Source: Eubacterium sp. 1001713B170207_170306_E7 (GTDB lineage: Bacteria > Bacillota > Clostridia > Eubacteriales > Eubacteriaceae). Taken from it: a DNA stretch of 64,000 nt. Shown one piece after another: positions 2,581 to 38,976 of this stretch. The position numbers were made by a program, and so were the translations under genes. The notes under the pieces were generated by a model, which saw nothing but the letters and a program-made list of their open reading frames with translations, did no database searches and had not been told where the DNA came from. The stretch is from contig NZ_JADMVE010000001.1 of the NCBI RefSeq assembly GCF_015547515.1, forward strand, positions 248,406 to 312,405, read 5' to 3'. Within the stretch, counting starts at the first letter, position 1. Every line of letters starts with the position of its first letter.

Positions 2581-2587
2581 ATCAGGT

Positions 2588-2905: not shown

Positions 2906-2952
2906 TTCGATAATCCGAAAATAAATTTCAAATTTCTAAGGGGGAAATTGAT

Positions 2953-4461: not shown

Positions 4462-4480
4462 TCTGAGTCTGGTTTTCTGT

Positions 4481-4510
4481 CAGGGGAAAGGCTTTGTCTC
4501 TCAGGTTTTT
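4481..4510 (+). repeat. Relic of the dispersed element (3' arm only)
   Basis: AGGGGAAAGGCTTTGTCTCT followed by CAGGTTTTT matches the 3' end of copy 2 (GGTAAAAGGCTTCGTCTCT, then CAGTTTTTT) with few changes. No 5' arm is present, so this is probably a decayed or solo end. A terminator follows directly. Confidence 0.6.
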
Positions 4511-4517
4511 AGGGGCA

Positions 4518-4554
4518 GAGAGACCGGCGCAAAAATGTGCCGGTCTCTTTTTTA
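4518..4554 (+). terminator. Intrinsic terminator after FGGY kinase
   Basis: AGAGACCGGC..GCCGGTCTCT stem with an A-rich loop and a T6 tract. The GACCGGCRCA..TGYGCCGGTC core is reused at many terminators in this window. Confidence 0.85.
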
Positions 4555-4645
4555 GTATAAGCCCATATACATTTACCCCCCTCTGTGATATGATTAATAA
4601 AGAGAAAAAAGCGTATTCATAACAATAGAGAAAAGGAGGGTTGCT

Positions 4646-6319: not shown

Positions 6320-6332
6320 GGAGGGAGCGCTT

Positions 6333-7124: not shown

Positions 7125-7125
7125 A

Positions 7126-7176
7126 CAAAAAAGGTGTAAGGAACCAGCACGTCGTGCGGCTCCTTACACTTTTTTG
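7126..7176. terminator. Bidirectional intrinsic terminator
   Basis: A long hairpin: AAAAAAGGTGTAAGGA pairs with TCCTTACACTTTTTT around an inner GCAC/GTGC stem. A-runs and T-runs on both sides let it end both convergent genes. Confidence 0.9.
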
Positions 7177-7177
7177 T

Positions 7178-8902
7178 TTATTCGGCTGTGTCTGGCGGGT
7201 TTTGGGCGTTGTAGACCTCATCGCCCCTGAAAAAGGTCTGGAGCACAGTGGTGTCCTTGATCTCATCGGTGGGGATGCTTAAGAGGTCCCGGTCCAGCAC
7301 GATGAAATCCGCGCTTTTTCCGGCTGTGATACTGCCGATCTCATCCCCGGCGCCGACCTGCCTGGCTCCGTTGATGGTGTAGGCCCTGATAGCCGTGGCG
7401 ATGTCGATGCCCTCGCTCTTTGGCGGATCATAGTCGTCGGATTCGCCGCGCTTAACGGCATGGTACATTTCTGCAAAGGGGTTGATGCCGGCCAGGCCGT
7501 TGCTCACCGGGGCGTCGCTGCCAAAGGTCAGCAGCGTGCCGTTCTGGGAGACGGTGTTCAGGGGCATCTGGCGGCCGTAGCGTGTCTGACCCAGGGCGGA
7601 TTTTGTAAATTCATCGCCCAGGGCCCAGACCGGGGTGGTCTGGTAAAAAACATCGGTCTGCTCGGCAAAGCGCCGGATACCGTCTTCAGGCAGGATCTGC
7701 ACGTGGGCCATGGTCTTGGTGCCCTCAATATCCCCTAAATCCTGGTAGAGGTCGAGGGTTTCGTCAATGGCCTTGTCGCCGATGGCGTGGGTGTGGATAT
7801 TAAAGCCCTTGCCGGCCGCGGCCTGGGCGATGGCCAGCATGTGGCTGTTGTCCAGGATCTCGATCCCCTCGCCGTTGTGATCGCTGAAGTCCTCAAACAT
7901 GAGGGAGGAGTAATCCTCCAGGGTGCCGTCCTTAAAGAGCTTGAGGGTGGTGGGGCGCACAGTGTCCGAGGTGTATTTGTCCCGCACCGCGGTCATTTTG
8001 GACACAAACGCGTCGACGGGGACAGGGTCTCTGTAGACAAAGGAGGTAAAGACACGGATGTCGGCCCCGGATTTGCTGAGGGCGTCGATGGATTCCTCCT
8101 CGTCGGCCACGAGCAGGCCCGCGTCATAGTAGGCGGTGTAGCCGTAGGGGCTGAGGACCGTCTGGGTAAAGACCGGGAAACGGGTCTCGATTTCCTTTCC
8201 CGAGGTTAAACCAAGGCCCTGGAGCATGATGGACATGGTGGAGGCCTCCTTGAACTCGCCGGTGGGATTGCCGCTTTCGTCCCTTACAAAATAGCTGATA
8301 CCCGGCGAGGGATCAGGCGTGGCGGCGGTTATGCCAGCCATTTCCAGAGCCTTTGTGTTGGCCCAGCCGCCGTGGCCGCCGCTGTTGGTGAGCACCACGG
8401 GCCTGTCGGACACTACCTTGTCCAGCTCGGAGGCCAGGGGCCTGGCGTCGGTGCCGTAGCCCGAGCCCGAGATCACTGGCGCCACCTCGGCGGGGTACTG
8501 GGCGGCGTAATCCCGGACCGCCTCCAGAATCTGGTCATGGGTCAGGGCCAGGTCGATCTGAAGGGGCAGCACGTCGCTGGTCCAGGTGTTGATGGCCAGG
8601 TAGTGGGCGTGGCTGTCGATGAGGCCGGGCAGAATGAGCCGGCCCTCCATATCGTGGGATGCTGCACCCCTCCCGGCGAATTTGAGGGCTTCGGTGCTGC
8701 TGCCTACAAAGGTGATTTTGCCATCCTTTACCACCAGGGCGCTGGCCTCGGGTTTTTCATCGTCCGAGGTGAAAACTTTGGCGTTGTAATACACCTCGCC
8801 GCCCTGGTTTACAACTGCGTTGGAGCAGCCGGCCAGAAAGATGACCGAGGAAGCCAGCAGGCCGACCGCAGCGGCCCGGATTTTACGCGATAACTTCTGC
8901 AT
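7178..8902 (-). CDS. Amidohydrolase-family lipoprotein (YtcJ-like)
   Basis: 574 residues from the ATG at 8902, which has AGGAGG 9 nt upstream; the longer frame to 8947 has no such site. A lipoprotein signal peptide is clear: positive KLSRKIR, hydrophobic core and lipobox LAGC at about residue 25. The body is an Amidohydro_3 (YtcJ-type) metal-dependent hydrolase: GRLILPGLIDSHAHYL (HxH ligand pair), NIHTHAIGDKA, MAHVQI and LTFGSDAPV. It would hydrolyse an amide or related bond outside the membrane. Most YtcJ relatives are cytoplasmic; a lipid-anchored version is less usual. Substrate unknown. Confidence 0.82.
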   Translation of the reverse strand: MQKLSRKIRAAAVGLLASSVIFLAGCSNAVVNQGGEVYYNAKVFTSDDEKPEASALVVKDGKITFVGSSTEALKFAGRGAASHDMEGRLILPGLIDSHAHYLAINTWTSDVLPLQIDLALTHDQILEAVRDYAAQYPAEVAPVISGSGYGTDARPLASELDKVVSDRPVVLTNSGGHGGWANTKALEMAGITAATPDPSPGISYFVRDESGNPTGEFKEASTMSIMLQGLGLTSGKEIETRFPVFTQTVLSPYGYTAYYDAGLLVADEEESIDALSKSGADIRVFTSFVYRDPVPVDAFVSKMTAVRDKYTSDTVRPTTLKLFKDGTLEDYSSLMFEDFSDHNGEGIEILDNSHMLAIAQAAAGKGFNIHTHAIGDKAIDETLDLYQDLGDIEGTKTMAHVQILPEDGIRRFAEQTDVFYQTTPVWALGDEFTKSALGQTRYGRQMPLNTVSQNGTLLTFGSDAPVSNGLAGINPFAEMYHAVKRGESDDYDPPKSEGIDIATAIRAYTINGARQVGAGDEIGSITAGKSADFIVLDRDLLSIPTDEIKDTTVLQTFFRGDEVYNAQNPPDTAE

Positions 8903-9107
8903 TTCTTGTTCCTCCTGAGCATTTGAGTATAGTTTAGCCGTATGCACTTATCATGAAATAAAATATACACCGGAGGGCGCAAAGCAAAACAGAAAAATCC
9001 CGGGATTAAGAAAAGGTCAAGGTTTGTAAAGAGAGGAAAGCCAGTCTTTGCAAGAGCGGGGCCACCAGCGCGCTGGACGGCGCAATCCTGATAAATTTTT
9101 GTCAGCC

Positions 9108-9136
9108 TTGTCATTTTATGTAAATTCAGCTACAAT
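9108..9136 (+). promoter_or_regulatory. Promoter of the molybdenum cofactor operon
   Basis: TTGTCA (9108-9113), 17 nt, TACAAT (9131-9136). Predicted transcription starts near 9143, leaving a leader of only about 32 nt with no clear Shine-Dalgarno and no room for a Moco riboswitch. Confidence 0.65.
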
Positions 9137-9174
9137 AGAAAGTATGAAATATAGAAAGTGTAGATTATATAAAA

Positions 9175-10398
9175 ATGGAGTTATTTGAAGTCAAAACAAC
9201 CGATGAAATGAAAACACTGATGGAGAAATATTTCTCAGATTACCGGCTCGGCACCGAGAGCGTTTCCCTTGGGCAGGCCCTGGGCAGAGTGCTCGCAGGA
9301 CCTGTTGTCTCAGGTGTAAACGTCCCACACTTTGACCGGTCCGTGGTGGACGGCTACGCGGTAAAATTAAAGGACGTCCAGGGCGCCAGCGAGGCCATCC
9401 CGGCCTTTTTAAAGCTGACCGGAGCCGCGGAGATGGGCCGGGAGACAAAGCTTGTCCTGGGCCCCGGCGAGACGATCTATGTGCCCACCGGCGGCATGGT
9501 GCCCGCAGGCACCGAGGCCATGGTCATGATCGAGTACACCGAGAAATTTGGCGGCGATGAGCTGGCCATCTACAAGGGGGCCGGCTCTCTGGAAAACATG
9601 ATGCTGACCGGCGATGACATAAAGGCCGGCGAGCCGGTCTTTGAGGCCGGGCACACTGTCAGGCCCCAGGATGTAGGGGTGCTGTCCTCGGTGGGGGCAG
9701 TGGAGGCGCTGGTCTACAAAAAGCCAAAGATCACCATTATCTCAACCGGCGATGAGATCGTGCGCCCCGGGCAGACTCCGGGGCTGGGCGAGATCGTGGA
9801 CATCAACACCCCGGCCATCGCGGCGCTGACGCAAAAGCTGGGCGCGGAGGTAACCGAGATGGCCTACGCGGCCGACGATCCGGCCGCCATCGAGACGGCC
9901 ATCACCCGGGGGCTGAAGAGCAGCGACGCTGTGGTGCTGTCCGGCGGCAGCTCGGTGGGTGAGCGGGATTACACGCTGGCGGTGCTGGAAAAGCTGGGTG
10001 AGGTGTTCCTCCACGGCCTGTCCATCAAGCCGGGCAAGCCCACCATTATGGGCAGGGCCCTGGGCAAGCCGGTCATTGGCCTGCCCGGACAGCCCGCCTC
10101 GGCCATCATGGTGTACATGGTGGTCATGAAAAAGCTGATGAATATTTTCCACCGGACCGATTTGTATAAAAACCAGTACATTGTGGGAACCCTGACCGAG
10201 AATGTCCACGCAGCCCCCGGGCGCAGGACCTTCCAGACGGTGGCGGTGGCATCCGACGGCGGCGGGGTTCTGGTAAAGCCGACCTACGGCAAGTCCGGCA
10301 TGATCACCCTGCTGGCCTACTCGGACGGTTATATCGAGATGACCGAAAACGAAGAGGGCAAAAATTCCGGCGATACCGTTAAGGTCATGCTGTTTTAA
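9175..10398 (+). CDS. moeA: Molybdopterin molybdotransferase MoeA
   Basis: 407 residues, standard for MoeA, which inserts molybdate (or tungstate) into adenylylated molybdopterin. The N-terminal domain has PHFDRSVVDGYAV; the MoCF-like domain has ITIISTGDEIV, the phosphate-binding VVLSGGSSVGERDY and IKPGKPTIMG followed by GLPGQPASAIMVYM. First gene of a five-gene Moco operon with a second, fused moeA next. ATG 9175 has only a weak ribosome site in a short AT-rich leader, which stands out from its neighbours. A later ATG at 9208 is possible but would cut conserved N-terminal sequence. Confidence 0.92.
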   Translation: MELFEVKTTDEMKTLMEKYFSDYRLGTESVSLGQALGRVLAGPVVSGVNVPHFDRSVVDGYAVKLKDVQGASEAIPAFLKLTGAAEMGRETKLVLGPGETIYVPTGGMVPAGTEAMVMIEYTEKFGGDELAIYKGAGSLENMMLTGDDIKAGEPVFEAGHTVRPQDVGVLSSVGAVEALVYKKPKITIISTGDEIVRPGQTPGLGEIVDINTPAIAALTQKLGAEVTEMAYAADDPAAIETAITRGLKSSDAVVLSGGSSVGERDYTLAVLEKLGEVFLHGLSIKPGKPTIMGRALGKPVIGLPGQPASAIMVYMVVMKKLMNIFHRTDLYKNQYIVGTLTENVHAAPGRRTFQTVAVASDGGGVLVKPTYGKSGMITLLAYSDGYIEMTENEEGKNSGDTVKVMLF

Positions 10399-28261: not shown

Positions 28262-29617
28262 ATGTGGATCGAGCTGTTTGCCAATTTTCTGACCTTTTTC
28301 GGCCCGCTTTTTCTGCGGTACTATCCGTTCCGCAGCCGGCTGCGCGTGCCCGCCTGGGTGATCGGCCTGTTTGTGGCCCTGGTGTGGGGCGGGGTGGTGG
28401 CCGCGCTTCTGGTCTTTGGCTACTCGGGCCCGCGCACCGTGTGGCTTTACCGCGGCATTACCTTTGTCATCTTTTTTATCTCATCCTGCTTTTTTATAAG
28501 GGACCGGTTCGTCAAGCATTTCTTTGTGTACCTGATCTGCTATACCTTTATGGCCGTGTGCATCGGCATCGCCCAGTTTGTCATGGTGCGCACCGGCGGA
28601 GGCTATCCGGCCATGATCATGGCCACCCTGGTCTTTGATCTGGTCACCTATCCCTTTATCTTTCTGTTTTTCCGCCGGGTGCTGGAGCCGGTGATGGACA
28701 TCGACAACACCCGGATCTGGAACATCATCTGGGTGCCGCCGCTGCTGTCCTGCTTTCTGATTTCCGTGGCCACGCCCGGCATGCTGGACGCCCAGAGCGT
28801 GAGTTATGTGGCCATCCGTACCCTGCTGGGCATCAGCAGCCTTGCCACCTGTTCCATACTGGTCATTGCGCTGGGCCACGTGAGGGAGCAGGCCCGCAGA
28901 GAGGCCGAGCTGACCCGGGAGCGGGAGGTGTCCGCCATGAAGCAGAACTTTCTGCACGACCTCTCCCACGAGCTCCAGGTGCCTGTGACCGTGGTGTCCG
29001 GCTTTGCCCAGCTCACCGGGGAGATGATGGACGATCCCGACATCGACCGGGCCGCCGTGCGGGATAACATGCGCCGGGTGGACAGCGAGGCCGGGCGCAT
29101 GGAACGCCTGGTGCGCCAGCTGCTGGACGCCGCGGCGATGGAAAACGGCAGCTTTACCCTGAACCGGCAGGCCGTGGACCTGGTCCCGGTGCTGGAGAAC
29201 GCCGCCAAAGTGCACTTTCCCGTGCTGGACGGCGGCGGCAACACCCTGCGCCTGAGCCTGCCCCAGGACCTGCCGCCAGTGGACGGCGACCGGGAGCGGC
29301 TGCTGCAGGTAGTGCTGAACCTGCTGACCAACGCGGCCAAGCACACCCGGAACGGCCAGATCACCCTGTCCGCCCAGGAGCGGCACGGACAGGTGGAGGT
29401 GGCCGTGGCCGACACCGGCGAGGGCATAAGCCCCGAGGCCATGTCAAGGCTCTTTAAACGTTACGCCAAGGGCGGCGGGCCCGACAGCCACGGCCTGGGC
29501 CTGTACATCGCCGACCAGATCGTCAAAGCCCACGGCGGCCAGATCGCTGTGGTGAGCGCGCCGGGGAAGGGAACCACTGTGCGCCTGACACTGCCTGTCA
29601 TGGAGAGGAGAGGATAA
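28262..29617 (+). CDS. Multi-TM sensor histidine kinase
   Basis: 451 residues from ATG 28262 (GAGGAGATCGGTT upstream; a TTG at 28238 is less likely). About six membrane helices fill residues 1-205, with no large external domain, so it may sense the membrane or a small signal. HisKA follows: FLHDLSHELQVPVTVVSGFA, with QVP instead of the usual RTP. HATPase: NLLTNAAKHTRNGQ, VADTGEGISPEAM, GLGLYIADQIVKAHGG. Partner response regulator starts 1 nt after. The pair directly precedes the exported-paralogue operon. Confidence 0.87.
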   Translation: MWIELFANFLTFFGPLFLRYYPFRSRLRVPAWVIGLFVALVWGGVVAALLVFGYSGPRTVWLYRGITFVIFFISSCFFIRDRFVKHFFVYLICYTFMAVCIGIAQFVMVRTGGGYPAMIMATLVFDLVTYPFIFLFFRRVLEPVMDIDNTRIWNIIWVPPLLSCFLISVATPGMLDAQSVSYVAIRTLLGISSLATCSILVIALGHVREQARREAELTREREVSAMKQNFLHDLSHELQVPVTVVSGFAQLTGEMMDDPDIDRAAVRDNMRRVDSEAGRMERLVRQLLDAAAMENGSFTLNRQAVDLVPVLENAAKVHFPVLDGGGNTLRLSLPQDLPPVDGDRERLLQVVLNLLTNAAKHTRNGQITLSAQERHGQVEVAVADTGEGISPEAMSRLFKRYAKGGGPDSHGLGLYIADQIVKAHGGQIAVVSAPGKGTTVRLTLPVMERRG

Positions 29618-29618
29618 A

Positions 29619-30308
29619 ATGACCGACAAACATTCACACACTGTACTCATGGTTGAGGACAACGAACACGTGCTGGCCCTTAACCAGTCCGTGCTGCAGC
29701 GCAAGGGCTACCGGGTGCTCACCGCCCGGAGCCTGGCCGAAGCCCACAGTCTGCTGGCCCGGAAGCCCCAGGTGGACGCGGCCGTGCTGGACATCCGGCT
29801 GCCCGATGGCGATGGCCTGGCCTTTATCCCCGAGCTGCGCAGGGCCACTCCGGCTCCGGTGCTCATGCTGACCAGCAGCCAGGACTACGAGAGCATGGTC
29901 CGGGGCCTGACCGGCGGGGCCGACGACTATATGACCAAGCCCTACCGCATTGACGAGCTGCTGGCCCGCATCGACGCCATGATCATCCGGCGGTCGGCGG
30001 CCCTGTCCGCCACCGAGGTAGTGCGGGGCCCCCTGGTGCTGGACACCGTGGCCCAGCGGGGGTTTCTCTTTGAACAGGACATGCTGCTCCAGCCCAGAGA
30101 GTTCGCCCTGCTGCTGTTTCTGATCCGCAGCGGGGAGCAGAGCGTGTCCGCGGACGCGCTGTACGAGGCCGTCTGGAAGCTGCCCCCTGCCGGCAGCGGC
30201 GGCGCCGTCAAGACCACAGTCTCCCGCCTGCGCAGCAAGCTGCGGGGCAGCGGCTATACCATCACCGCAGTCCGCGGCCAGGGCTACCAGTTCGGGCCCG
30301 AGGAATAA
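29619..30308 (+). CDS. OmpR/PhoB-family response regulator
   Basis: 229 residues: receiver domain (MVEDNEHVLALNQSV, phospho-acceptor in VLDIRLPDGDGLAF, KPYRIDELLARI) and a C-terminal winged helix (LLQPREFALLLFLIRSGEQS, KTTVSRLRSKLRG, TAVRGQGYQF). Coupled to the upstream kinase. A 10-bp inverted repeat begins 7 nt after its stop, just before the promoter region of the exported-protein operon, and is a candidate binding site. Confidence 0.9.
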   Translation: MTDKHSHTVLMVEDNEHVLALNQSVLQRKGYRVLTARSLAEAHSLLARKPQVDAAVLDIRLPDGDGLAFIPELRRATPAPVLMLTSSQDYESMVRGLTGGADDYMTKPYRIDELLARIDAMIIRRSAALSATEVVRGPLVLDTVAQRGFLFEQDMLLQPREFALLLFLIRSGEQSVSADALYEAVWKLPPAGSGGAVKTTVSRLRSKLRGSGYTITAVRGQGYQFGPEE

Positions 30309-30314
30309 ACCAGC

Positions 30315-30340
30315 CAAAGGTTACAAATTGGTAACCTTTG
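30315..30340. promoter_or_regulatory. Perfect inverted repeat upstream of exported-protein operon
   Basis: CAAAGGTTAC (30315-30324), 6-nt loop AAATTG, GTAACCTTTG (30331-30340). No T-run follows, so it is a poor terminator and a better operator candidate for the adjacent response regulator. Confidence 0.5.
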
Positions 30341-30363
30341 CAGTTTCGGGGCGTGGATTATAG

Positions 30364-30369
30364 TATAAT
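30364..30369 (+). promoter_or_regulatory. -10 box of exported-protein operon
   Basis: TATAAT at 30364-30369 has no good -35 (CAGTTT at the 17-nt position). A weak -35 next to an inverted repeat fits activator-dependent transcription. Confidence 0.45.
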
Positions 30370-30475
30370 GAACACAGGTGCAGGCGTGTCCCAAAAACAG
30401 GAAGCTGAAATCCGGCTTTCTTTTTTTATTGGTGCGCCGCCGTCAGTCACAATAAGCACAACAGGGAGAAACAGC

Positions 30476-30946
30476 ATGGAAAAATCAAAAGCAAAAAATG
30501 GACTCATCATCGTTTTGGCGCTGCTGCTGCTGGCCGCCATCGGCTTTATCGCCTGGCGCTTCGCGGGCGGCAGGGAGCCGGGCATGGAACCAGGCGTGGT
30601 GGCTCTCACACCCACGCCCGAGGGACAGCAGGCCCCAGACGGCATCCAGGTGCCGGGCTACCCTTTGCTCACAGCCAGCAGCAGCACCGGGGTGCTGGCC
30701 GTTCAGTTTGAGAACCCCGAGGGCAACCCCTGCACCTTCCAGATCGATCTGGTGCTCGAGGACACCGGGGAGACCATCTACCAGTCCGGCCTCTTTAAGC
30801 CGGGCACCGGCATCCGGAACCCAAAGCTGGATAAGGTGCCCGCGCCCGGCAGCTACAACGCCACCATTGTCTACAACACAAAGGGTCTGGAGGATGACAG
30901 CCCCATGAACGGCGCGGCAGTCAAAACCCAGCTCATCGTTGAGTGA
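30476..30946 (+). CDS. Membrane-anchored extracellular beta-domain protein
   Basis: 156 residues from ATG 30476 (AACAGGGAGAAACAGC). One N-terminal TM anchor (IIVLALLLLAAIGFIAWRFA), a Pro/Glu-rich stalk, then a beta-sandwich-like domain: QVPGYPLLTASSSTGVLAV, FENPEGNPCTFQIDLVLED, SGLFKPGTGI, PAPGSYNATIVYNT, MNGAAVKTQLIV. Similar short proteins are frequent in gut Firmicutes beside exported Ig-like proteins; the function is unknown. First gene of the operon. Confidence 0.75.
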   Translation: MEKSKAKNGLIIVLALLLLAAIGFIAWRFAGGREPGMEPGVVALTPTPEGQQAPDGIQVPGYPLLTASSSTGVLAVQFENPEGNPCTFQIDLVLEDTGETIYQSGLFKPGTGIRNPKLDKVPAPGSYNATIVYNTKGLEDDSPMNGAAVKTQLIVE

Positions 30947-30981
30947 CCGGATTTGCCGCACCGCGGCGGAAAGGAAACGTT

Positions 30982-31488
30982 ATGAAACGCAGAAAATTCA
31001 CAGCCGTCCTGCTCCTTGGCGTGCTGCTGGCCGCGGCCGGCGGCAGCGTGTGCCGGGCGGAGAGCCCGGACCGCAGCGTTCCGGTCTCGGTCAATTTTAT
31101 CCCGAAAGCCACCTACCGCGTGGTCATACCCGAGCGGGCCAGCCTGAGCTACGACGGCCGCCTGGAGTACGAACTGGGCGATATCCTGGCCGACCAAATC
31201 GTTCTGCCCGAGGGCAGGGCCCTGCAGGTCAGCATTGTGCAGCCGGCCCTGCGCCTGTACCGGGAAGGCACAGCCGGGCCCGGCAGCACCCTGAGCTACC
31301 AGGCCGCCCTGGCGCCCGCCGGACAGACCGCGCGCACCCGCCAGACCCTGCTGACAGCCGGCGAGCCCTGCGGCCTGTACGCCGCCTTTGACAGCGCGGC
31401 CGCCCGCCAGGCCGGAGCGGGAAAATACGTGAGCCGCCAGGCAAAGGATACCCTGCGCCTGAGCTTTGAACTTGTGGAGGTACCGTGA
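30982..31488 (+). CDS. Secreted Ig-like protein 1 of the paralogue operon
   Basis: 168 residues from ATG 30982 (GGAAAGGAAACGTT). Signal peptide with core AVLLLGVLLAAAGGSVC, cleavage near CRAES. The mature part has the family signature: ATYRVVIPERASLSYDG (aromatic-x-V-x-IP motif) followed by GDILADQIVLPEG and a C-terminal strand LRLSFELVEV. It is the least like the middle genes and more like the last one (34297). Function unknown; exported beta-sandwich. Stop codon overlaps the next start. Confidence 0.72.
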   Translation: MKRRKFTAVLLLGVLLAAAGGSVCRAESPDRSVPVSVNFIPKATYRVVIPERASLSYDGRLEYELGDILADQIVLPEGRALQVSIVQPALRLYREGTAGPGSTLSYQAALAPAGQTARTRQTLLTAGEPCGLYAAFDSAAARQAGAGKYVSRQAKDTLRLSFELVEVP

Positions 31489-31787
31489 TGAAAAAACTGA
31501 GCCTGCTCCTGGCCGTCACCCTGTGGCTGGGCCTGTCCGCCCCGGTGGTCTGCGCCCAGGACGCCGCCACCTACGGCAGCGACCTGACCGTCGGTGTGTC
31601 CCAGGAGCTCATCGACGCCGACCGGGCCGCCCGGGACGGAAAGAACCCTCCCTCCGGGCAGAAGGGCCAGAACCCGCCCACCGGCATGGCCGGCATGGTC
31701 TGGGGGGCCGCTGGCGCCCTGGCGCTGGGGACCGGAGCCGTGGCCCTGCATATGAGCAGCAAGAACAGAAAGCGAGGCAGAAATTGA
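31488..31787 (+). CDS. Small surface protein with sortase-type NPPTG sorting signal
   Basis: 99 residues; ATG 31488 shares one base with the previous stop. Signal peptide MKKLSLLLAVTLWLGLSAP. A short mature region (about 40 residues) leads to NPPTG, then a hydrophobic span MVWGAAGALALGTGAVALHM and a basic tail SKNRKRGRN: the full three-part sortase signal. NPPTG fits the (S/N/P)PxTG motif used by class B sortase of Clostridioides difficile. No sortase gene is in the window. Probably the wall anchor of whatever the paralogues build. Confidence 0.72.
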   Translation: MKKLSLLLAVTLWLGLSAPVVCAQDAATYGSDLTVGVSQELIDADRAARDGKNPPSGQKGQNPPTGMAGMVWGAAGALALGTGAVALHMSSKNRKRGRN

Positions 31788-31789
31788 AA

Positions 31790-32413
31790 ATGAAAATAAA
31801 AACAAAGCACATCACCGCCGCCCTGCTCCTGGCCGCCCTGCTGGCCGCCCCGGTCCGGCCCGTTCTGGCCGGGGACAGTCAACAACAGGTAAGCATACCC
31901 GTGCCCAGTGCAGGGCTCAAAGTGAATTATATAACGCGCAGTTATACCATAACCATACCTGCACGCATTGATTTTGGCAATATGTACTGGACCGGTAACG
32001 GTGTTGACGATGGTACAAAGAATGTGCAGCCTGTCCACTGGACAGAGGCTGCGATTATACTCGGCGAGGTGAGCCCGCCCGATCGTAAGAGCCTGTATTC
32101 TGTCAATGTGACCGTCGAAGCCCGCGACCCGAAGCCCACGCAGGATAAGGCAGGTGAATTCTGGCTGAAAAACGAGACCGAACAGACACCTCTCCGGTAC
32201 CGGATCTACCTGGAAGGTGAGGCAGGCAAGCCGGGGCTCGAAGTAATATCCGGGGGTTCCTTTGGTCTGAACACAAACCCTGAAAACACTGAAGTGACCC
32301 AGAAGATAATGCTGGGCGCGTACGAGCCTGCCAGGGGCAGAGAGCTGGGCCAGTACAAGGGCACGCTGGTCTTTAGCTCAGAGCTGGTCCGTAGAAATCC
32401 AAGCACACCATAG
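31790..32413 (+). CDS. Secreted Ig-like protein 2 of the paralogue operon
   Basis: 207 residues from ATG 31790; a TTG at 31784 overlapping the preceding stop is possible, but the duplicate at 33101 has TTA there, favouring ATG. Signal peptide core TAALLLAALLAAPVRPVLAG. Family signature: VNYITRSYTITIPARIDFG, then a long variable middle with EVSPPDRKSLYSVNVTVEA, ending AYEPARGRELGQYKGTLVFS. The signal peptide and C-terminus are nearly repeated in the gene at 33101. Confidence 0.75.
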   Translation: MKIKTKHITAALLLAALLAAPVRPVLAGDSQQQVSIPVPSAGLKVNYITRSYTITIPARIDFGNMYWTGNGVDDGTKNVQPVHWTEAAIILGEVSPPDRKSLYSVNVTVEARDPKPTQDKAGEFWLKNETEQTPLRYRIYLEGEAGKPGLEVISGGSFGLNTNPENTEVTQKIMLGAYEPARGRELGQYKGTLVFSSELVRRNPSTP

Positions 32414-32426
32414 GAGGCGTTATAAG

Positions 32427-32990
32427 ATGAAAAAGAAAATAACCGCGGCCCTGCTGTGTCTGGGTCTGCTGGTTCTGCCGGCCTCCCAGGCGGCGGCAGA
32501 GTCAGCCGTACCCACAACCGGAGAGGAGACCGCCGACGTATCCCTCAGCTATATGCTTCCCAGCTATCTGGTCACTGTCCCCAAAGATCTGGATTTTGGC
32601 GATCAGGTTCGAGCGGACGGCGACCTGGAGAAGGAACTGAAGGTTTCTGTCCAGGAAATAAAGGCCGTCAACGATGATCCTGCCGAACAGGCGTGGGTCG
32701 AGAGCCACTACCGGGTTAATTTCGATATTTATGGCGGTGGTACACATCATGCGTTTGTCCTGTTACAAGGTACGCCGGAGGGAGGAAACTTGGTAGCCGA
32801 ATACAAGGTCTATAAGTTTGTCGGGACAAATCCGGAGGAGGTGCCCGTTAACGGTTCTTTTGCGACCCTGGCGAAGGATGAGGAGCAAACGGGTAAGATC
32901 GTACTGTCACCGCCAGATCAGGATAAGGATGGTGTATATAAAGGCGTACTCAATTTTAGTGTGAGTCTGAAATGCCAGGACACGCAATAA
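32427..32990 (+). CDS. Secreted Ig-like protein 3 of the paralogue operon
   Basis: 187 residues; ATG follows TAGGAGGCGTTATAAG. Signal peptide KKKITAALLCLGLLVLPASQ. Signature SYMLPSYLVTVPKDLDFGD near residue 42 and C-terminal GVYKGVLNFSVSL. Its upstream region and signal peptide are nearly identical to those of 33708, showing the two are duplicates. Middle part (YRVNFDIYGGGTHHAFVLL, then YKVYKFVG) matches 33708 more loosely. Function unknown. Confidence 0.75.
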   Translation: MKKKITAALLCLGLLVLPASQAAAESAVPTTGEETADVSLSYMLPSYLVTVPKDLDFGDQVRADGDLEKELKVSVQEIKAVNDDPAEQAWVESHYRVNFDIYGGGTHHAFVLLQGTPEGGNLVAEYKVYKFVGTNPEEVPVNGSFATLAKDEEQTGKIVLSPPDQDKDGVYKGVLNFSVSLKCQDTQ

Positions 32991-33100
32991 CAGCCGCTCT
33001 GGCTGTCAAAGGGCGCCCGGCCTTTTTGGCCCCGGGGGGAGCCCCTTGGCGGCGGCCTGTATTGAAGCATCAAGAACAGAAAGCGAGGCAGAAATTAAAA
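32991..33100 (+). pseudogene. Relic of the sortase-tail gene between duplicated gene pairs
   Basis: AAGAACAGAAAGCGAGGCAG followed by AAATTAA, ending at 33096, encodes KNRKRGRN-stop, the exact C-terminal tail of the NPPTG protein (31488-31787). The rest of that gene is gone. It marks the breakpoint of a tandem duplication that copied the gene pair 31790/32427 to 33101/33708. Confidence 0.7.
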
Positions 33101-33685
33101 ATGAAAATAAAAATGAAGCACACCGCCGCCCTGCTCCTGGCCGCTCTGCTGGCCGCCCCGGTCCGGCCCGTTCTGGCCGGGGAATCAGGCCCAGCCAAGC
33201 CCACTGTGCCGGTCTCCGTGAATTATGTGATGCCCAGTTATTCGATCACCTACCCAGAGAAGATCGACTTTGGAACCAGGTACTGGACCGGTAAAAACGT
33301 TGAGAATTCTGAGATCACCAATCAAGACTCGGATGTCGAGGTAACGGATGCGATTGTGTTTAAAGCCATTGACCCGAATCCAGACGGGTATACCATCAAG
33401 GTGAGCGTCGCTCCCGGCGATAAAGAAGGTCATCCGCAGCCTGACGGTAAATTTGAACTGAAAAGCCCGGATGGAAAGTCCTCGCTCAGCTACTGGGTCT
33501 GCGATGCCACTGGGGGTAAAGTACAGTCCGGGGACGTCATTGCCCAGGTCGGGACAAAAGACTTGTCAAAAGACATTCAACGGGATATAAAGCTCAAGAC
33601 ATACGAGCCTGCAAGGGGCCAATCGATGGACCAGTACAAGGGCATCCTGCTCTTTACATCGGAAATTACCCAAAACGGACCGTGA
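33101..33685 (+). CDS. Secreted Ig-like protein 4 (duplicate of 31790 gene)
   Basis: 194 residues. The first about 25 residues (signal peptide HTAALLLAALLAAPVRPVLA) match those of the 31790 gene, and VNYVMPSYSITYPEKIDFG, TRYWTG and TYEPARGQSMDQYKGILLF align with its counterparts, while the middle has diverged. ATG 33101 lies in the duplicated leader carrying GCGAGGCAG. Divergence confined to the middle suggests selection on surface-exposed loops. Confidence 0.76.
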   Translation: MKIKMKHTAALLLAALLAAPVRPVLAGESGPAKPTVPVSVNYVMPSYSITYPEKIDFGTRYWTGKNVENSEITNQDSDVEVTDAIVFKAIDPNPDGYTIKVSVAPGDKEGHPQPDGKFELKSPDGKSSLSYWVCDATGGKVQSGDVIAQVGTKDLSKDIQRDIKLKTYEPARGQSMDQYKGILLFTSEITQNGP

Positions 33686-33707
33686 ACACACGAGGAGGCA
33701 TTATAAG

Positions 33708-34280
33708 ATGAAAAAGAAAATAACCGCAGCCCTGCTGTGCCTGGGCCTGCTGCTCCTGTCCGCCGCCCCGGTGTCAGCCGGGACGCCAGACCCAGCGCCG
33801 TCACCGGCGCCCACACCCGCTTCTAATACCAGCGTATTGGCCCACTTTGTTCTGCCGGAATATAAAATCCGCATCCCTGATAAACTGGATTTTGGGAGCC
33901 CCAGTATTGCGGACGAGAATGTAATGGTGGACCTGAATGTTGAAGTCACAGGGATGACACCGTACAACAATGATGCGTCAAAACAGGCGTATGTCAATGA
34001 GCACTACCAGGTCCGTTTCAAAATCAATGGCGAGTCTGGCGATCCAAATTTCAAATTGACTAAGGTGTTATCTGGAGCAACAACCGATGAGTCTGTCGAG
34101 TATTATGTCTTTAAGAAGATAACAGGGTCGGGGGATGAACAGGTGTATCCAAACAGCACTTTTGCGGAGCTGAAAAACGGAGGGCAGCAGGCTGGCTATC
34201 TCAAGCTCGGAAAGCCTCCAACGGCAGGTCTGTACCAGGGCGTCGTCCAATTCGAGATTGGGCTGGAATATGTGGATTAA
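33708..34280 (+). CDS. Secreted Ig-like protein 5 (duplicate of 32427 gene)
   Basis: 190 residues; ATG follows CGAGGAGGCATTATAAG. Signal peptide matches that of 32427. A Pro-rich spacer (TPDPAPSPAPTPAS) precedes the signature HFVLPEYKIRIPDKLDFGS; VEVTGMTPYNNDASKQAYVN aligns with VQEIKAVNDDPAEQAWVE of its duplicate. C-terminal GLYQGVVQFEIGLE. Exported, function unknown. Confidence 0.76.
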   Translation: MKKKITAALLCLGLLLLSAAPVSAGTPDPAPSPAPTPASNTSVLAHFVLPEYKIRIPDKLDFGSPSIADENVMVDLNVEVTGMTPYNNDASKQAYVNEHYQVRFKINGESGDPNFKLTKVLSGATTDESVEYYVFKKITGSGDEQVYPNSTFAELKNGGQQAGYLKLGKPPTAGLYQGVVQFEIGLEYVD

Positions 34281-34296
34281 ACGCAGGAGCAAAGCC

Positions 34297-34794
34297 ATGA
34301 AAACAAAACTGAACACACTGCTGCTGTCCCTCTGCCTGCTGCTGGCCGCCGGGCCCGCTGCTGCCGCCCAGGTGGTCACGCCCGACCCCTCCACCATGAA
34401 GGCCGAGGGCAGCGTGGCCGTGGACATGCACATCGACGAACACTTTGTGGTGGTGATCCCCGGGGCGCTGACCATCGCGCCCGCTTCCGGCGGCCGTGAG
34501 TACGCCGTGGGTGACGTGCAGCTCACCGAGGTGCATCTGCTGGACGGCCACCAGCTGGCCCTGGGCCTGCCCCAGGAGATGACCCTTGCCAGCACCGTGC
34601 GGGCCGGCAGCACCCTGCGGGCCGCGCCCTTTATCGGCAGCCCCGGCAGCGCCCGGCAGAGCCAGACCGTCATGGCCCTCGGGCAGCCCGTGCCCGTAAG
34701 CCTGGGCTTCGCGCCCTACGCCTTTGCAGACGCTGTGGCCGGGCAGTACAAGGGCGTGATCCAGTACCATGTCTGGATCGAAAATACGCCCTGA
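34297..34794 (+). CDS. Secreted Ig-like protein 6, last gene of the operon
   Basis: 165 residues from ATG 34297 (CGCAGGAGCAAAGCC). Signal peptide LLLSLCLLLAAGPAAAA. Signature DEHFVVVIPGALTIAPASG and C-terminal AGQYKGVIQYHVWIE. The central LASTVRAGSTLRAAPFIGS is like GPGSTLSYQAALAPAG in the first paralogue. A clear terminator follows at 34844. Confidence 0.74.
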   Translation: MKTKLNTLLLSLCLLLAAGPAAAAQVVTPDPSTMKAEGSVAVDMHIDEHFVVVIPGALTIAPASGGREYAVGDVQLTEVHLLDGHQLALGLPQEMTLASTVRAGSTLRAAPFIGSPGSARQSQTVMALGQPVPVSLGFAPYAFADAVAGQYKGVIQYHVWIENTP

Positions 34795-34843: not shown

Positions 34844-34880
34844 AAGAACTGAAGACCAGCAAGTCTCAGTTCTTTTTTTA
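34844..34880 (+). terminator. Terminator of the exported-protein operon
   Basis: AAGAACTGA/TCAGTTCTT hairpin with an inner GAC/GTC and a T7 tract. Confidence 0.9.
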
Positions 34881-34919: not shown

Positions 34920-35486
34920 ATGATTTTATCAAACGCAACCCTGACCCTGGATGAACAGGAAAACAGTGAGCTGGACCTGAGTGTGCCCCAGCGCTACAGA
35001 ATTGAGTACCACGGCATGCCAAGCTGCCCGTGCTGCGGCGCGCCCATGAGCCACCGGGATACCTTTGGCCGCAGCATGACCGGCGCCGCGGGGGAGCCCA
35101 TGCGCCTGACCCCGCGGCGGGTGGTCTGCGACAACAAGGACTGCTACTACCACGACCACCCGGTGCGCAACCTGCCCAACGCGGTTCTGCCCTACCGCCG
35201 CTACAGCGCCAAGGCCCACGAGGCCGTGGCCCAGGGCAGCGCCGACATGCCCTGCCCGCCCAACACCCAGAGCCGCCTGTACCAGTGGCTCACCGAGGCG
35301 GCCCCAAAATGGCTGGAGCAAGTGTGCGGCGGGGAGGACCCGCCGGATTTCTGTCTGGTTCAGGAGGCGCAGGAGGCTCTGGAGGCCCTGCCCGGCAAAG
35401 CGCTGGACTGCCTGCGCGAGGCCTACGGCAGCCAGCCCGGCTGGCTGGGCCGGCTAATCCAGCAGCTGCTCAATCAAAAAAGATGA
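34920..35486 (+). CDS. DUF6431-like zinc-ribbon protein
   Basis: 188 residues; ATG 34920 follows GAGGAGGAGAAC. A zinc ribbon is visible: CPCCG near residue 36, then CDNKDC with nearby histidines (YYHDHP), followed by LPNAVLPYRRYSAKAHE. This layout matches DUF6431 proteins, which often accompany mobile elements. The C-terminal half is helical. First gene of a phage/element-like cluster; function unknown. Confidence 0.65.
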   Translation: MILSNATLTLDEQENSELDLSVPQRYRIEYHGMPSCPCCGAPMSHRDTFGRSMTGAAGEPMRLTPRRVVCDNKDCYYHDHPVRNLPNAVLPYRRYSAKAHEAVAQGSADMPCPPNTQSRLYQWLTEAAPKWLEQVCGGEDPPDFCLVQEAQEALEALPGKALDCLREAYGSQPGWLGRLIQQLLNQKR

Positions 35487-35582
35487 TTTGCATCGACTTT
35501 GAGAGGACAAAGGCTCCTGGCTGCAATAAAATAAAGGCATCATCACAAAAGGATGATACAAATTTATTATAAGGAGAATAAC

Positions 35583-36383
35583 ATGAACACCAACACAGAA
35601 TTAAAAAGCCCTCAGGCCCCTGCGGTCCAAAGCCCGGACAGCGGCCCCGAAATCCCCGTGACCCTCTGGGAGAACCGCCCCGTGGTCAGCAGCCGGCAGG
35701 TAGCCGGAGACTTTTTGAGAGAGCACAAAAGCGTGCTGCGGCGGATCACGGTGCTGCTGCGTGAGACCAGAGCGCAAAATTGCGCCGGTCTCTTTACCGA
35801 GTCCTCCTACCTGGACGCGGGCGGCCGGTGCCGCAAGGAGTACCTCATCACCCGGGACGGCTTCGCCCTTCTGGTCATGGGCTTTACAGGCCCGCGCGCC
35901 CTGAGCTGGAAGCTTAAGTACATTCAGGCCTTTAACCGCATGGAGCAGGCCCTGCGCTGTCCGCCAGCCCACCTGCCGGCAGACCAGACCCTGCTGGCCG
36001 CCGCGCTGCTGGAGGCCGAGCGTATCGTCGCCGGGCTGAAGCGCGAGGCCGACTACGCCAAAACCGTGCTCGCCAGCAGGGCCCTGGTGCCCATCAGCGG
36101 CATTGCCAAGGACTACGGCATGACCGCCGAGTTTATGAACCGTCTGCTCTGCAGCCTGGGCGTCCAGTACAAAAAAGGCAGCCGGTGGTACCTGTACGAG
36201 CCCTGGCAGGACGAAGGCTTTGCCGCCACCCGGTCCGATACCATCCGCAAAAAGGACGGCAGCGTCATGGTGGTGGAGAGCCTGCAGTGGACCCAGAAGG
36301 GCAAGCGGTTTCTGTACGAGCTGCTGGCCGAAAACAGCATTTACCCGGTATTGGAGCGTGGCCAGCATGAACTTCGTGACTGA
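35583..36383 (+). CDS. Rha-type phage regulator/antirepressor
   Basis: 266 residues from ATG 35583 (TATAAGGAGAATAAC). N-terminal pRha domain: VVSSRQVAGDFLREHKSVLR, YLITRDGFALLVMGFTG, KLKYIQAFNRME. The C-terminal half resembles the ANT/KilAC antirepressor domain (ISGIAKDYGMTAEFMNRLL, then LQWTQKGKRFLYELL). Rha proteins interfere with lysogenic control in temperate phages. The gene contains a terminator-like palindrome at 35763-35792. It overlaps the next gene by 17 nt. Confidence 0.8.
   Translation: MNTNTELKSPQAPAVQSPDSGPEIPVTLWENRPVVSSRQVAGDFLREHKSVLRRITVLLRETRAQNCAGLFTESSYLDAGGRCRKEYLITRDGFALLVMGFTGPRALSWKLKYIQAFNRMEQALRCPPAHLPADQTLLAAALLEAERIVAGLKREADYAKTVLASRALVPISGIAKDYGMTAEFMNRLLCSLGVQYKKGSRWYLYEPWQDEGFAATRSDTIRKKDGSVMVVESLQWTQKGKRFLYELLAENSIYPVLERGQHELRD
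35763..35792 (+). other. Terminator-like palindrome inside the Rha coding region
   Basis: GAGACC (35763) with inner GCGCAA/TTGCGC and GGTCTC (35787-35792), then TTTA. The inner core GCGCAAAATTGCGCC is the same as in the terminators at 14251 and 42838. It encodes the AQNCA stretch of the protein. Confidence 0.5.
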
Positions 36384-37026
36384 GTTTTTAAGCTTTATGG
36401 CCTGGCTGCGCTGCCGCCGCCACAAGGTCTTGGAATATCTGGGCCTCTGGGTGTACCTCTTTACCTGCAACAACGCCGCCGCCGTACAGGACGAGGACGG
36501 CAGCTGGTGCTGGCCCGTGTGGTTCGAGGTAGACAGCCGGGACCTGTGCGGCTTCATGGACGGAATGTCCTCGAAACGCCTCTGGGACCTGCGGCAGGAG
36601 CTGATCCGGAATTCCAGGGTGGAATACCAGAAGGCTTCCGGCGGACAGCCCGCCCGTTACGCCCTGGTGCCCTTTGACACCGAGTTGGCCCAGGTTCACC
36701 TGGCTTCCACGGCTTCTTCCGGAGCCTGCACGGTCTGGAAACCCCGTGGGGAAACCCCGGGAAATCCGGCCCGGTTTATTTTGGAACCACCCCGGGAACC
36801 AAACCGCTTTTCTTCTGATTTTGATATAAATAATAAATATATAAATATAAAAGCATTACCGGGGGATGAGGCGGCCAACCCCAACGGCTTCAACATTCCG
36901 CCCCAGCTCACCGAGGAAGAAAAGCAGCAGCTCGAGGCCGAATATCCCGATCCGGTCCAGCGCTTCTGGGCCGGCATGGCCCTGCGGGATAAAAAAGCCG
37001 AGGAGGAAAAAGCATGGGCCTATTAA
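36367..37026 (+). CDS. Unrecognised protein of phage-like cluster, possible replication protein
   Basis: 219 residues; ATG 36367 overlaps the Rha gene by 17 nt. The N-terminus (LRCRRHKVLEYLGLWVYLF) through RLWDLRQELIRNSRVEYQ looks like a winged-helix or DnaD-like fold. A low-complexity stretch encoded by AT-rich DNA at about 36814-36860 (DINNKYINIKALPG) separates it from a charged C-terminal end. Position after an antirepressor and the AT-rich tract suggest a phage replisome organiser, but no clear motif proves it. Confidence 0.5.
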   Translation: MNFVTEFLSFMAWLRCRRHKVLEYLGLWVYLFTCNNAAAVQDEDGSWCWPVWFEVDSRDLCGFMDGMSSKRLWDLRQELIRNSRVEYQKASGGQPARYALVPFDTELAQVHLASTASSGACTVWKPRGETPGNPARFILEPPREPNRFSSDFDINNKYINIKALPGDEAANPNGFNIPPQLTEEEKQQLEAEYPDPVQRFWAGMALRDKKAEEEKAWAY

Positions 37027-37235
37027 AAGACCGCTACACCGACCTGTACAACGAGCGTTTTTACGAGGATCCGGGCTACACGGTTTACGAGTGCCTGGCC
37101 GAGGGAACCCTGCGCCTGAGCATCCGGGCCCACACCCTGGAGGAGGCCGAGGCCCGCTTCGCCGAAGCCCTGGACGAGACTGAGGATAACCACCCGGGCC
37201 TGGTGCTGCGCCAGCAGTGGGTGGCGGAAACGTGA
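37014..37235 (+). CDS. Small hypothetical protein
   Basis: 73 residues; ATG 37014 overlaps the upstream gene by 13 nt, with GAGGAAAAAGC as ribosome site. Acidic and Glu/Ala-rich (LEEAEARFAEALDETED). Not recognised. The overlaps on both sides show a compact, phage-like operon. Confidence 0.55.
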   Translation: MGLLKDRYTDLYNERFYEDPGYTVYECLAEGTLRLSIRAHTLEEAEARFAEALDETEDNHPGLVLRQQWVAET

Positions 37236-37480
37236 TGGACGCTGCCTTTGGCCGATGGCTGCGGGAAAGCCGACGCGCCAGAGGGCTCACCCAGCAGGGC
37301 CTGGCCGACGCGGCCGGCCTCAGCCACAAGACCGTGTTCCGGGCAGAGCGGGGCCAGCCCGTGAGCGCCTACAGCAGGGCGCAGCTGACCGCTTTTCTGG
37401 GAGAGCCGCCCCCGGCCCCGGCTGACCAATCGGACCAGAGTGGTCACTTTACACTGTCCATATACCGGGAGCACCTGTGA
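37235..37480 (+). CDS. XRE-family helix-turn-helix protein
   Basis: 81 residues from ATG 37235, sharing one base with the previous stop. The HTH is clear: WLRESRRARGLTQQGLADAA, then GLSHKTVFRAERGQ, the Cro/C1 type. The DNA-binding domain is nearly the whole protein. Likely a local regulator of the cluster. Confidence 0.8.
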   Translation: MDAAFGRWLRESRRARGLTQQGLADAAGLSHKTVFRAERGQPVSAYSRAQLTAFLGEPPPAPADQSDQSGHFTLSIYREHL

Positions 37481-37520
37481 TGGTAAACTAAAGTCAGGAA
37501 ATCGAAAGGAGGTACACCCC

Positions 37521-37754
37521 ATGGCCTATGAACGCATCAAAACCAAGCACGAGCTTAAGCTGAGCTTAAACTACGGCGAAGTCGAGGGAAAAAGCAAGAA
37601 AAAGCTCAAAACCCTTGGCGGCCTCAACCTAGACGAGACCGTCGCCACCACCGAGGCGGTGGTCAAAACCGCCAAAGCCCTCGGCACCCTCATAGAACCC
37701 ATTGTCCAGGACGTCACCAACGTCATGTACTACGATAACGTCGAGACCGCCTGA
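37521..37754 (+). CDS. DUF1659-like small protein
   Basis: 77 residues from ATG 37521 (GAAAGGAGGTACACC). KLSLNYGEVEGKSKKKLKTL followed by NLDETVATTEAVVKTAKAL matches the DUF1659 pattern. Function unknown; such genes are usually followed by a DUF2922 gene, as here. Confidence 0.7.
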   Translation: MAYERIKTKHELKLSLNYGEVEGKSKKKLKTLGGLNLDETVATTEAVVKTAKALGTLIEPIVQDVTNVMYYDNVETA

Positions 37755-37798
37755 CGCGGAAGCGATAAATAACCCAGTAAAAGAAAGGAGGAACCCCC

Positions 37799-38032
37799 AT
37801 GGAAACCGTCAACACCAAGACACTGGATCTGGAGTTTATGATGGAGAACGGCGATACCGACACCATCAGCCTGCCAGACTATTTACCCGATGTCACCAAG
37901 GAGCAGATCCTGGCCGCGGCCGGCATCGTCATTGCCCAGAACATCTTTAAGCCCGACGGCTTCAGCTACACCAGGCTCGCGGGCTACGAATTCATTGATA
38001 AAACCGTGCGTAAGGAAGAACTGGAAGATTAG
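37799..38032 (+). CDS. DUF2922-like small protein
   Basis: 77 residues; ribosome site GAAAGGAGGAACC. LEFMMENGDTDTISLPDYLP, then TKEQILAAAGIVIAQNIF fits DUF2922, the usual partner of DUF1659. Function unknown. Last gene before a terminator and element copy 4. Confidence 0.7.
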   Translation: METVNTKTLDLEFMMENGDTDTISLPDYLPDVTKEQILAAAGIVIAQNIFKPDGFSYTRLAGYEFIDKTVRKEELED

Positions 38033-38036
38033 GCTA

Positions 38037-38061
38037 AAAGGGAGCGAAAGCTCCCTTTATA
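38037..38061 (+). terminator. Terminator after DUF2922 gene
   Basis: AAAGGGAGC GAAA GCTCCCTTT, a tetraloop hairpin with TATAA after; short T-run. Confidence 0.75.
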
Positions 38062-38150
38062 ATTTCGATAAAGCCTGGCAGTAAGCGCTGAAGCGGAAGA
38101 AAGAGGCGGCTTTTGCCGGAGGTGATGGGATGTGGCCGCAGACGCTTCAG

Positions 38151-38376
38151 GGTGTCAGGAAACCGGCCAAGCCCGAGGCTGCGCCTTTTATCCAGATAAG
38201 AAAAAAAGGTCCAGGCGCTGTATAAACGACCAAAAATCGTGATGATTCAGCAGAACAGCCGGACATTAGAGAGATAGAATGCCAGCTTTAGTGAGTAAAG
38301 TTACAAGTGTAAGGACAGTGCCCGCAGGACACTTTTTTCTTCCTTAGGTAAAAGGCTTCGTCTCTTGAGTTTTTTG
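38151..38376 (+). repeat. Dispersed structured element, copy 4 (short form)
   Basis: GTGTCAGGAAACCGGCCAAG, then GAGGC at 38175 and CTTTTATCCAGATAAG. Inner stem GGCGCTG (38214-38220)/CAGTGCC (38316-38322). The 3' arm ends TAAAAGGCTTC then GTCTC (38360-38364) and T6. It ends 30 nt before the start of the peptidase gene, so it occupies that gene's leader. The outer stem has a G.U pair in place of A-U. Confidence 0.83.
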
Positions 38377-38406
38377 GCATTAACAATAACCGAAAGGAGG
38401 TGCTTT

Positions 38407-38976
38407 ATGAAAATCAGAAAATATACGGTGCTGTTGATTCTGGCCTGCTGTGTGGGCGTCGGCTGTTATTTTTTCGCCGGGCAGCTTGTCCTTATGCGCG
38501 GCGTGGAAAGCAAGGGCCCGCCGGATAAAGGCGGCTGGGAGGCGGTGACGCCGGAAAACCCCGGCGCGCCAGAACCCGGCGCCGGGGAGCTGCCCGCCGA
38601 GGGGCAGAGCCCACCGGAAACGGACAGCCCGCAGGAGCCCGTCATGGCTACGGCCCATTTCGCCAGGGACGAATACCGCTGCGACTGTAATGGCAGCTGC
38701 GATGGCTGGCCCTGTGAGATGAACCCCGCGCTGCTGGATAAAATCGAGGCCCTGCGCTGTGCCTGCGGGGGGCCGGTCATCATCACCTCGGGCGTGCGGT
38801 GCGTCGCGCGCAACGCCGAGGTGGGCGGGGTGGACTGGTCCTTTCATCTGCGGGGCGACGCGGCGGACCTGTACTGCCCCGGCGTGGCCGTGGGCGATCT
38901 GGCCCAGATGGCAGAGGCCCTGGGCATGAACATCCTGCCCTATTACGGGAGCGGCTATATCCATGTGGAAATCTGA
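38407..38976 (+). CDS. Membrane-anchored peptidase M15_3-like (D-Ala-D-Ala carboxypeptidase fold)
   Basis: 189 residues from ATG 38407 (CCGAAAGGAGGTGC). A signal anchor (TVLLILACCVGVGCYFFAG), a Pro/Glu-rich linker to about residue 75, then the M15_3 domain: cysteine-rich CDCNGSCDGWPCEM, IITSGVRCVARNAEVGG, the zinc-site SFHLRGDAADLY (HxxxxxxD) and YIHVEI. It would act on peptidoglycan outside the membrane. The cysteine pairs suggest disulfides. Confidence 0.8.
   Translation: MKIRKYTVLLILACCVGVGCYFFAGQLVLMRGVESKGPPDKGGWEAVTPENPGAPEPGAGELPAEGQSPPETDSPQEPVMATAHFARDEYRCDCNGSCDGWPCEMNPALLDKIEALRCACGGPVIITSGVRCVARNAEVGGVDWSFHLRGDAADLYCPGVAVGDLAQMAEALGMNILPYYGSGYIHVEI

Follow-up and report, generated by a model that had tools for sequence, protein, structure and literature searches.

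An operon of secreted Ig-like paralogues in Eubacterium with a dedicated two-component system and a WxL/csc-like gene layout

We analysed a 64,000-nucleotide stretch (hereafter, the window) of the 4.27 Mb genome of Eubacterium sp. 1001713B170207_170306_E7 (contig NZ_JADMVE010000001.1, positions 248,406 to 312,405). A set of ten genes on its + strand encodes a sensor histidine kinase (HK), a response regulator (RR) and eight small proteins (g3–g10, 30476–34794; Table 1), and appears to specify an undescribed clostridial surface-attachment system. Our preferred reading, to which we give a probability of about 0.55, is that the two-component system activates a pilin-fold surface complex, in which g3 sits in the membrane and g5 on the wall, N-terminal donor strands being the probable link between the parts. 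The gene content agrees with the initial annotation of this DNA, in which a kinase with several transmembrane (TM) segments and a regulator precede eight small genes: the kinase has six hydrophobic stretches as well as HisKA and HATPase_c domains, and g3 is the one TM-anchored beta-domain protein, with an uncleaved N-terminal TM helix and an immunoglobulin (Ig)-like ectodomain. The broader proposal of a dedicated, regulated surface structure is supported by synteny in four species, by an operator-like dyad that occurs once per genome and by the small gene products, each of which is exported, membrane-anchored or wall-sorted (8/8).

The six secreted paralogues (g4 and g6–g10) form a single family, as had been proposed. 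Each has a signal peptide and one domain, and a profile built from the six retrieves just these six from the window's genome. The domains lack cysteines. Of the motifs thought to be shared, the Y-x-V-x-IP strand is present in all six, whereas LDFG/IDFG is restricted to g6–g9. The final strand matches exactly in three members (g6, g7 and g9) and closely in two (g8 and g10), and in g4 an insertion interrupts it. The pairs g6–g7 and g8–g9 are a tandem duplication. DNA around their signal peptides is 77.6% identical over 246 bp and 75.9% identical over 170 bp, and the mature proteins of the duplicate pairs are only about 34–35% identical. Across species, g4 and g10 are conserved (41–58% identity) and g6–g9 are variable (about 24–34%). 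This split into core and variable members, together with the diverged mature parts, is the pattern that would be expected for exposed, diversifying subunits. No Pfam or NCBIfam family could be assigned to g3–g10, with only a weak pointer for g5.

To place the operon in context, we compared four Eubacterium genomes: the window's own (G000), E. callanderi, G024 and G025, with gene calls for the relatives taken from a simple script. All four keep the gene set, and its synteny is conserved across the four species. In both E. callanderi and G025 the kinase and regulator accompany the operon; G024 carries ~7 kb of extra DNA (L137, about 2440–9940), with a BglG-like gene in it, between the regulator and the operon. 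Homologues of g3 number up to eight per Eubacterium genome and occur in 19 of 291 sampled Clostridia. Their neighbours include the same secreted domain in small proteins and a short NPxTG protein, and in sister operons the domain stands at the C-terminus of proteins of 900–1700 amino acids with beta-helix repeats (Beta_helix_3). Of 31 loci in other genera searched with a profile made from Eubacterium only, 22 have the domain beside a g3 homologue and on the same strand; truncated contigs and the broken g3 copy of the window's genome account for several of the other nine. Eleven of the 14 domain-positive genomes among the 291 Clostridia are also g3-positive (P about 1e-12), a statistic that is partly non-independent because the profiles derive from loci found via g3.

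Two further observations concern the g3 homologues. A broken one (L053, G000:C2:279415-279668) lies where E. callanderi and G024 carry a copy (L040, L041). Others (L042-L044, L085, L088, L089) have an extra, presumably cytoplasmic domain of ~100 residues on the N-terminal side of the TM helix, in which a YxxKKQMxxLYP motif recurs.

The regulation of the operon is dedicated: each of the four Eubacterium genomes contains a single copy of the dyad GGTTAC-N6-GTAACC, invariably at this promoter. The region 5' of the operon is common to all four: AGGTTACAAATTNGTAACCTTT is followed at a fixed distance by GTATAAT and then by a leader with a terminator hairpin. The dyad occupies the -35 region, where there is no good -35 element. 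The sensor part of the kinase is also present in one copy in each genome. The operon's own regulator probably binds the dyad, with AGGTTACAAATTGGTAACCT as its candidate target. In G024 (L137), a second, imperfect dyad (GGTTATAAATTAGTAA) lies directly upstream of the intact one. The folding z-score of the leader hairpin is -5.1 in E. callanderi and -4.3 in G025, and only -1.6 in the window. A known riboswitch was ruled out at the level of Rfam, where a search with the leader found no family.

The gene described initially as sortase-type encodes a sortase substrate instead. The g5 protein (99 amino acids) consists of a signal peptide, a short segment, NPPTGM, a hydrophobic stretch and KNRKRGRN; its sorting signal and the missing catalytic domain (TLxTC) rule it out as a sortase. 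In size and build it agrees with the definition of CscD, a protein of 90–140 amino acids with a signal peptide and a sorting signal (PMC1534035), and it matches NCBIfam EF0750_LPXTG at an E-value of 0.01, under the curated cut-off. A segment of g5, TYGSDLTVxVSQELIDAD (x variable; strand sequence YGSDLTVGVSQEL), is invariant in the four species, and a variable linker separates it from the sorting signal. The simplest reading of this segment is a wall-anchored strand that would plug into a subunit. Five sortases are encoded elsewhere in the genome, three of class C and two class B-like, one of which exceeds the cut-off. In C. difficile, SrtB cleaves (S/P)PXTG (PMC4155245).

The clostridial system is laid out like the WxL/csc clusters known from lactic acid bacteria, combining a large protein, stand-alone small domains, a membrane Ig protein and a tiny sortase substrate. 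Each part has its counterpart in the Bacilli WxL clusters examined for comparison, where small WxL proteins are the stand-alone components, a DUF916-DUF3324 protein is anchored in the membrane, and a large surface protein and a tiny LPXTG protein complete the set (PMC1534035, PMC9772566, PMC10599100). Large proteins with the domain at the C-terminus accompany small copies in the sister operons, the window locus having the small ones only; g3 and g5 provide the membrane-anchored Ig-like protein and the sortase substrate, respectively. The latter resembles the small CscD-type LPXTG proteins EF2685 and EF0750, apart from its motif and its score. Remote similarity supports the link. In a profile comparison, the domain scored 33.7 against WxL (Prob 72; best column shuffle 14.5, reversed 11.2), with the last strand GxYxGxLxF opposite YxTTLTW, and g3 aligned with DUF916-DUF3324 across 62 columns, in the DUF3324 part, at a score of 29.4 (best of 100 shuffles 20.8). 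Unlike WxL/csc clusters, however, the window proteins lack WxL motifs, PF13731 and PF06030, g3 carries its TM helix at the N-terminus and a single Ig domain where WxLIP has two Ig domains and a C-terminal TM helix, g5 is sorted by NPxTG and not LPxTG, and the operon has its own two-component system and a clostridial host. Csc/WxL clusters have been reported absent from clostridia (PMC1534035).

In four or five of six Bacilli clusters, the N-terminus of CscD clearly reproduces the N-terminus of the small WxL protein encoded with it, as judged against shuffles (e.g., EVRSVETEGTVSFT / EVRNVTTDGTIEFT). In L094-L096 and L098, CscD begins with almost the same 14 residues as the small WxL proteins of its own cluster (e.g., AADAEYDSNGVTAF vs AADTDYTSNGAVEF), which suggests a shared docking strand. 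A strand of WxLIP has been predicted to complete WxL (PMC10599100), and a partial literature search found WxL and donor strands together in a single paper, a 2013 review with one mention each.

Remote similarity also supports a pilin-like fold. The domain profile matched CsuA/B in the PDB at an E-value of 2e-4 and an SCPU pilin at 0.026. Taken by itself this evidence is moderate, because two short repeats give an IgA receptor a similar score. An initial profile matched YncM at an E-value of 0.08. Comparison with SCPU by hhalign gave 34.6 (best of 40 shuffles 12.3). The AlphaFold2 (AF2) model of g7, predicted from 29 sequences, has a pLDDT of 86, and its top Foldseek matches are nearly all chaperone–usher pilins, along with TasA (8aur) and archaeal bundling pili (7ueg). 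In each subunit, the segment before the first strand shows alternating hydrophobic residues (mean 3.02 vs 2.16 shuffled, 0/2000); in the g7 model it is unpaired and of low confidence. For g3 the matches were generic Ig ones, and g3 as a Csu-type chaperone was unsupported (19.7 vs a shuffle maximum of 19.2). In Csu pilins and TasA, an N-terminal strand completes the next subunit (PMC9452303, PMC9674648), and TasA fibres are built in Gram-positives without chaperone or usher, TapA being thought to supply the first strand (PMC9674648).

The system shares with archaic chaperone–usher pili of Gram-negative bacteria (Csu, SCPU) LDFG-like and G-x-Y-x-x-x-L strands, an alternating N-terminal strand before the domain and several minor subunits per operon, and probably resembles them in subunit fold. 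Unlike them, it has no periplasmic chaperone or outer-membrane usher among the ten genes, no outer membrane and no cysteines, and is anchored by g3 and a sortase. TasA/camelysin fibres of Bacillus are likewise made of a Gram-positive secreted beta-sandwich and have no usher, and they assemble by donor strands as is proposed here, although sequence similarity to them was not detected, a SipW-type gene is missing and the layout differs. A chaperone–usher system and, as the window proteins have no match to the TasA/camelysin family in Pfam, a TasA system were therefore ruled out. The initial annotation could not assign the operon to a described system. Neither of the outcomes that it named as refuting its proposal was seen: the family searches gave no confident assignment to pilin, WxL or TasA families, and synteny is conserved. 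The field has nonetheless been narrowed to a WxL/csc-like layout and a domain like that of chaperone–usher pilins.

In the mechanism that we propose, transcription would begin at the promoter with the dyad over its -35 region, where the RR is expected to bind, and would then have to pass the leader terminator. The six subunits, each a predicted incomplete-Ig (pilin-fold) domain, would be exported by Sec. The complex would be tethered to the outer face of the bacterial membrane by the N-terminal TM helix of g3, and g5 would be joined to peptidoglycan at NPxTG by a sortase, probably of class B. We infer that the amphipathic N-terminal strand of one subunit enters the open groove of its neighbour, as happens in TasA and chaperone–usher pilins, so that the subunits dock with one another and g5, and perhaps also g3, and that the subunits serve in attachment. 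The product could plausibly be a fibre or an adhesive layer. More tentatively, assembly by donor strands without chaperone or usher might be started by g5 and g3 and capped by beta-helix adhesins in the sister operons, WxL/csc being the same machine in Bacilli. If true, this would account for the likeness of CscD to the N-terminal strand of the WxL proteins encoded with it.

Several results weigh against such a complex. Pfam WxL, SCPU, DUF916/3324 and TasA have zero matches among the window proteins, and so a hit at the family level is lacking. The Prob of the match between the domain and WxL drops to 9% with a smaller alignment, hhalign E-values refer to single comparisons, and TM-scores of the g7 model to pilins are about 0.4-0.53. 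Direct comparison of WxL with SCPU gave 13.3, below shuffles, and direct homology between them was rejected; the clostridial family therefore sits between the two. Amphipathic strands are also ordinary as edge strands, and a shallow alignment may be the cause of the low pLDDT of the N-terminal segment. Between the g5 strand and the N-termini of the subunits encoded with it, no similarity was detected except a weak one in one species. The window locus encodes no large adhesin, only small domain proteins.

The same observations could be taken further, to a true fibre in which one or more subunits polymerise into a pilus, each N-terminal strand being donated in turn and neither chaperone nor usher being needed, with the g5 strand on the wall as nucleus and large beta-helix proteins as tips in sister operons. 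This would agree with fold matches that are almost only donor-strand fibres, with the alternating N-terminal strand, with the resemblance of the large proteins to two-domain tip adhesins and with the TasA precedent in Gram-positives (PMC9674648). However, the subunits are divergent single copies without a single abundant major pilin, chaperone and usher are missing and the similarly laid-out WxL clusters are not known to make fibres; we consider such a fibre rather unlikely. We regard as unlikely a wall-bound layer without strand exchange, in which each domain itself binds peptidoglycan or a wall glycopolymer: pilins are the closer structural matches and the window proteins lack the W and L that are conserved in the two WxL motifs, even though the last strand and the layout are WxL-like and WxL domains have been reported to bind peptidoglycan (PMC10599100).

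The weak scores, the lack of a curated family and the generic Ig matches of g3 might instead indicate unrelated Ig-like domains with a generic beta-sandwich likeness, in an operon that serves some different purpose, for example ligand capture or the buffering of envelope stress. Against this, donor-strand pilins stand out in three independent comparisons, the shuffle and reverse controls are clearly exceeded and the layouts are parallel; we consider this reading improbable. An ordinary WxL cluster overlooked by annotation would have an identical gene layout, but is very improbable indeed and is ruled out at the family level: PF13731 is absent from the window's genome and 30 relatives and occurs in one of the 291 Clostridia, PF06030 is absent from the window's genome and the WxL motifs are missing.

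The surface-complex reading bears on the unsettled question of how WxL proteins are held together. As the family resembles WxL on one side and archaic chaperone–usher pilins on the other, donor strands are suggested as a testable common mechanism. The WxLIP helix has been proposed to enter the host membrane (PMC10599100); the N-terminal TM helix of g3, which in some copies follows a presumed cytoplasmic domain, favours an anchor in the bacterial membrane. Clostridia gain a system parallel to WxL that is commoner there than true WxL (14 vs 1 of 291 genomes), and induction becomes tractable in a gut acetogen because kinase and regulator are dedicated to the operon and its promoter has a single site.

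Table 1. Features of the two-component system and operon, in window coordinates.
Feature	Position	Strand	Remarks
HK, sensor histidine kinase, ~6 TM segments, HisKA + HATPase_c	28262..29617	+	Orthologues 67-79% identical in other Eubacterium; one copy per genome
RR, OmpR/PhoB-type response regulator	29619..30308	+	Orthologues 67-76% identical
Operator-like dyad CAAAGGTTAC-AAATTG-GTAACCTTTG, likely RR site (predicted)	30315..30340	.	Near-invariant in 4 species
-10 element TATAAT	30364..30369	+	Invariant GTATAAT in 4 species; good -35 not present
Leader hairpin and U run, intrinsic terminator/attenuator ahead of first structural gene	30393..30430	+	Conserved; folding z-scores given in the text
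g3, N-terminal TM anchor and Ig-like ectodomain (IPGY..NPEGNPC.F), remote DUF3324/WxLIP likeness	30476..30946	+	AF2 pLDDT 92
g4, secreted pilin-fold domain protein, conserved type	30982..31488	+	41-45% in other species
g5, 99-aa sortase substrate, CscD-like: TYGSDLTVxVSQELIDAD, linker, NPPTGM, TM, basic tail	31488..31787	+	
g6, secreted pilin-fold domain protein, variable type	31790..32413	+	
g7, secreted pilin-fold domain protein, variable type; subunit used for modelling	32427..32990	+	
g8, secreted pilin-fold domain protein, g6 duplicate	33101..33685	+	
g9, secreted pilin-fold domain protein, g7 duplicate	33708..34280	+	
g10, secreted pilin-fold domain protein, conserved type	34297..34794	+	55-58% in other species
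Inverted repeat AAGAACTGA..TCAGTTCTT then T run, likely operon terminator	34844..34880	+	Sequence inspection; absent from consensus terminator scan

Inverted repeats of 23-26 bp (core GTTAAGTTNNNAACTTAAC) occur in pairs, spaced 138-144 bp, where large surface-protein genes or operons begin (L038:3474-3663, L039:4335-4522, L044:9551-9740, G000:C9:6132-6315, G000:C11:101401-101583), mostly adjoining a tyrosine-recombinase gene. Their arrangement resembles that of invertible promoters for phase variation. The L038 and L039 segments share one orientation, and inversion was not seen. Two pairs lie in the window's own genome, and none at the window operon.

A phage search using the kinase gene gave no match. 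Downstream of the operon, window positions 34920-38976 contain genes for DUF6431, a Rha/ANT phage-type regulator, a helix-turn-helix (HTH) protein, DUF1659, DUF2922 and an M15 peptidase, and blocks resembling this region are found downstream of the sister surface operons L037, L038, L039, L043 and L044.

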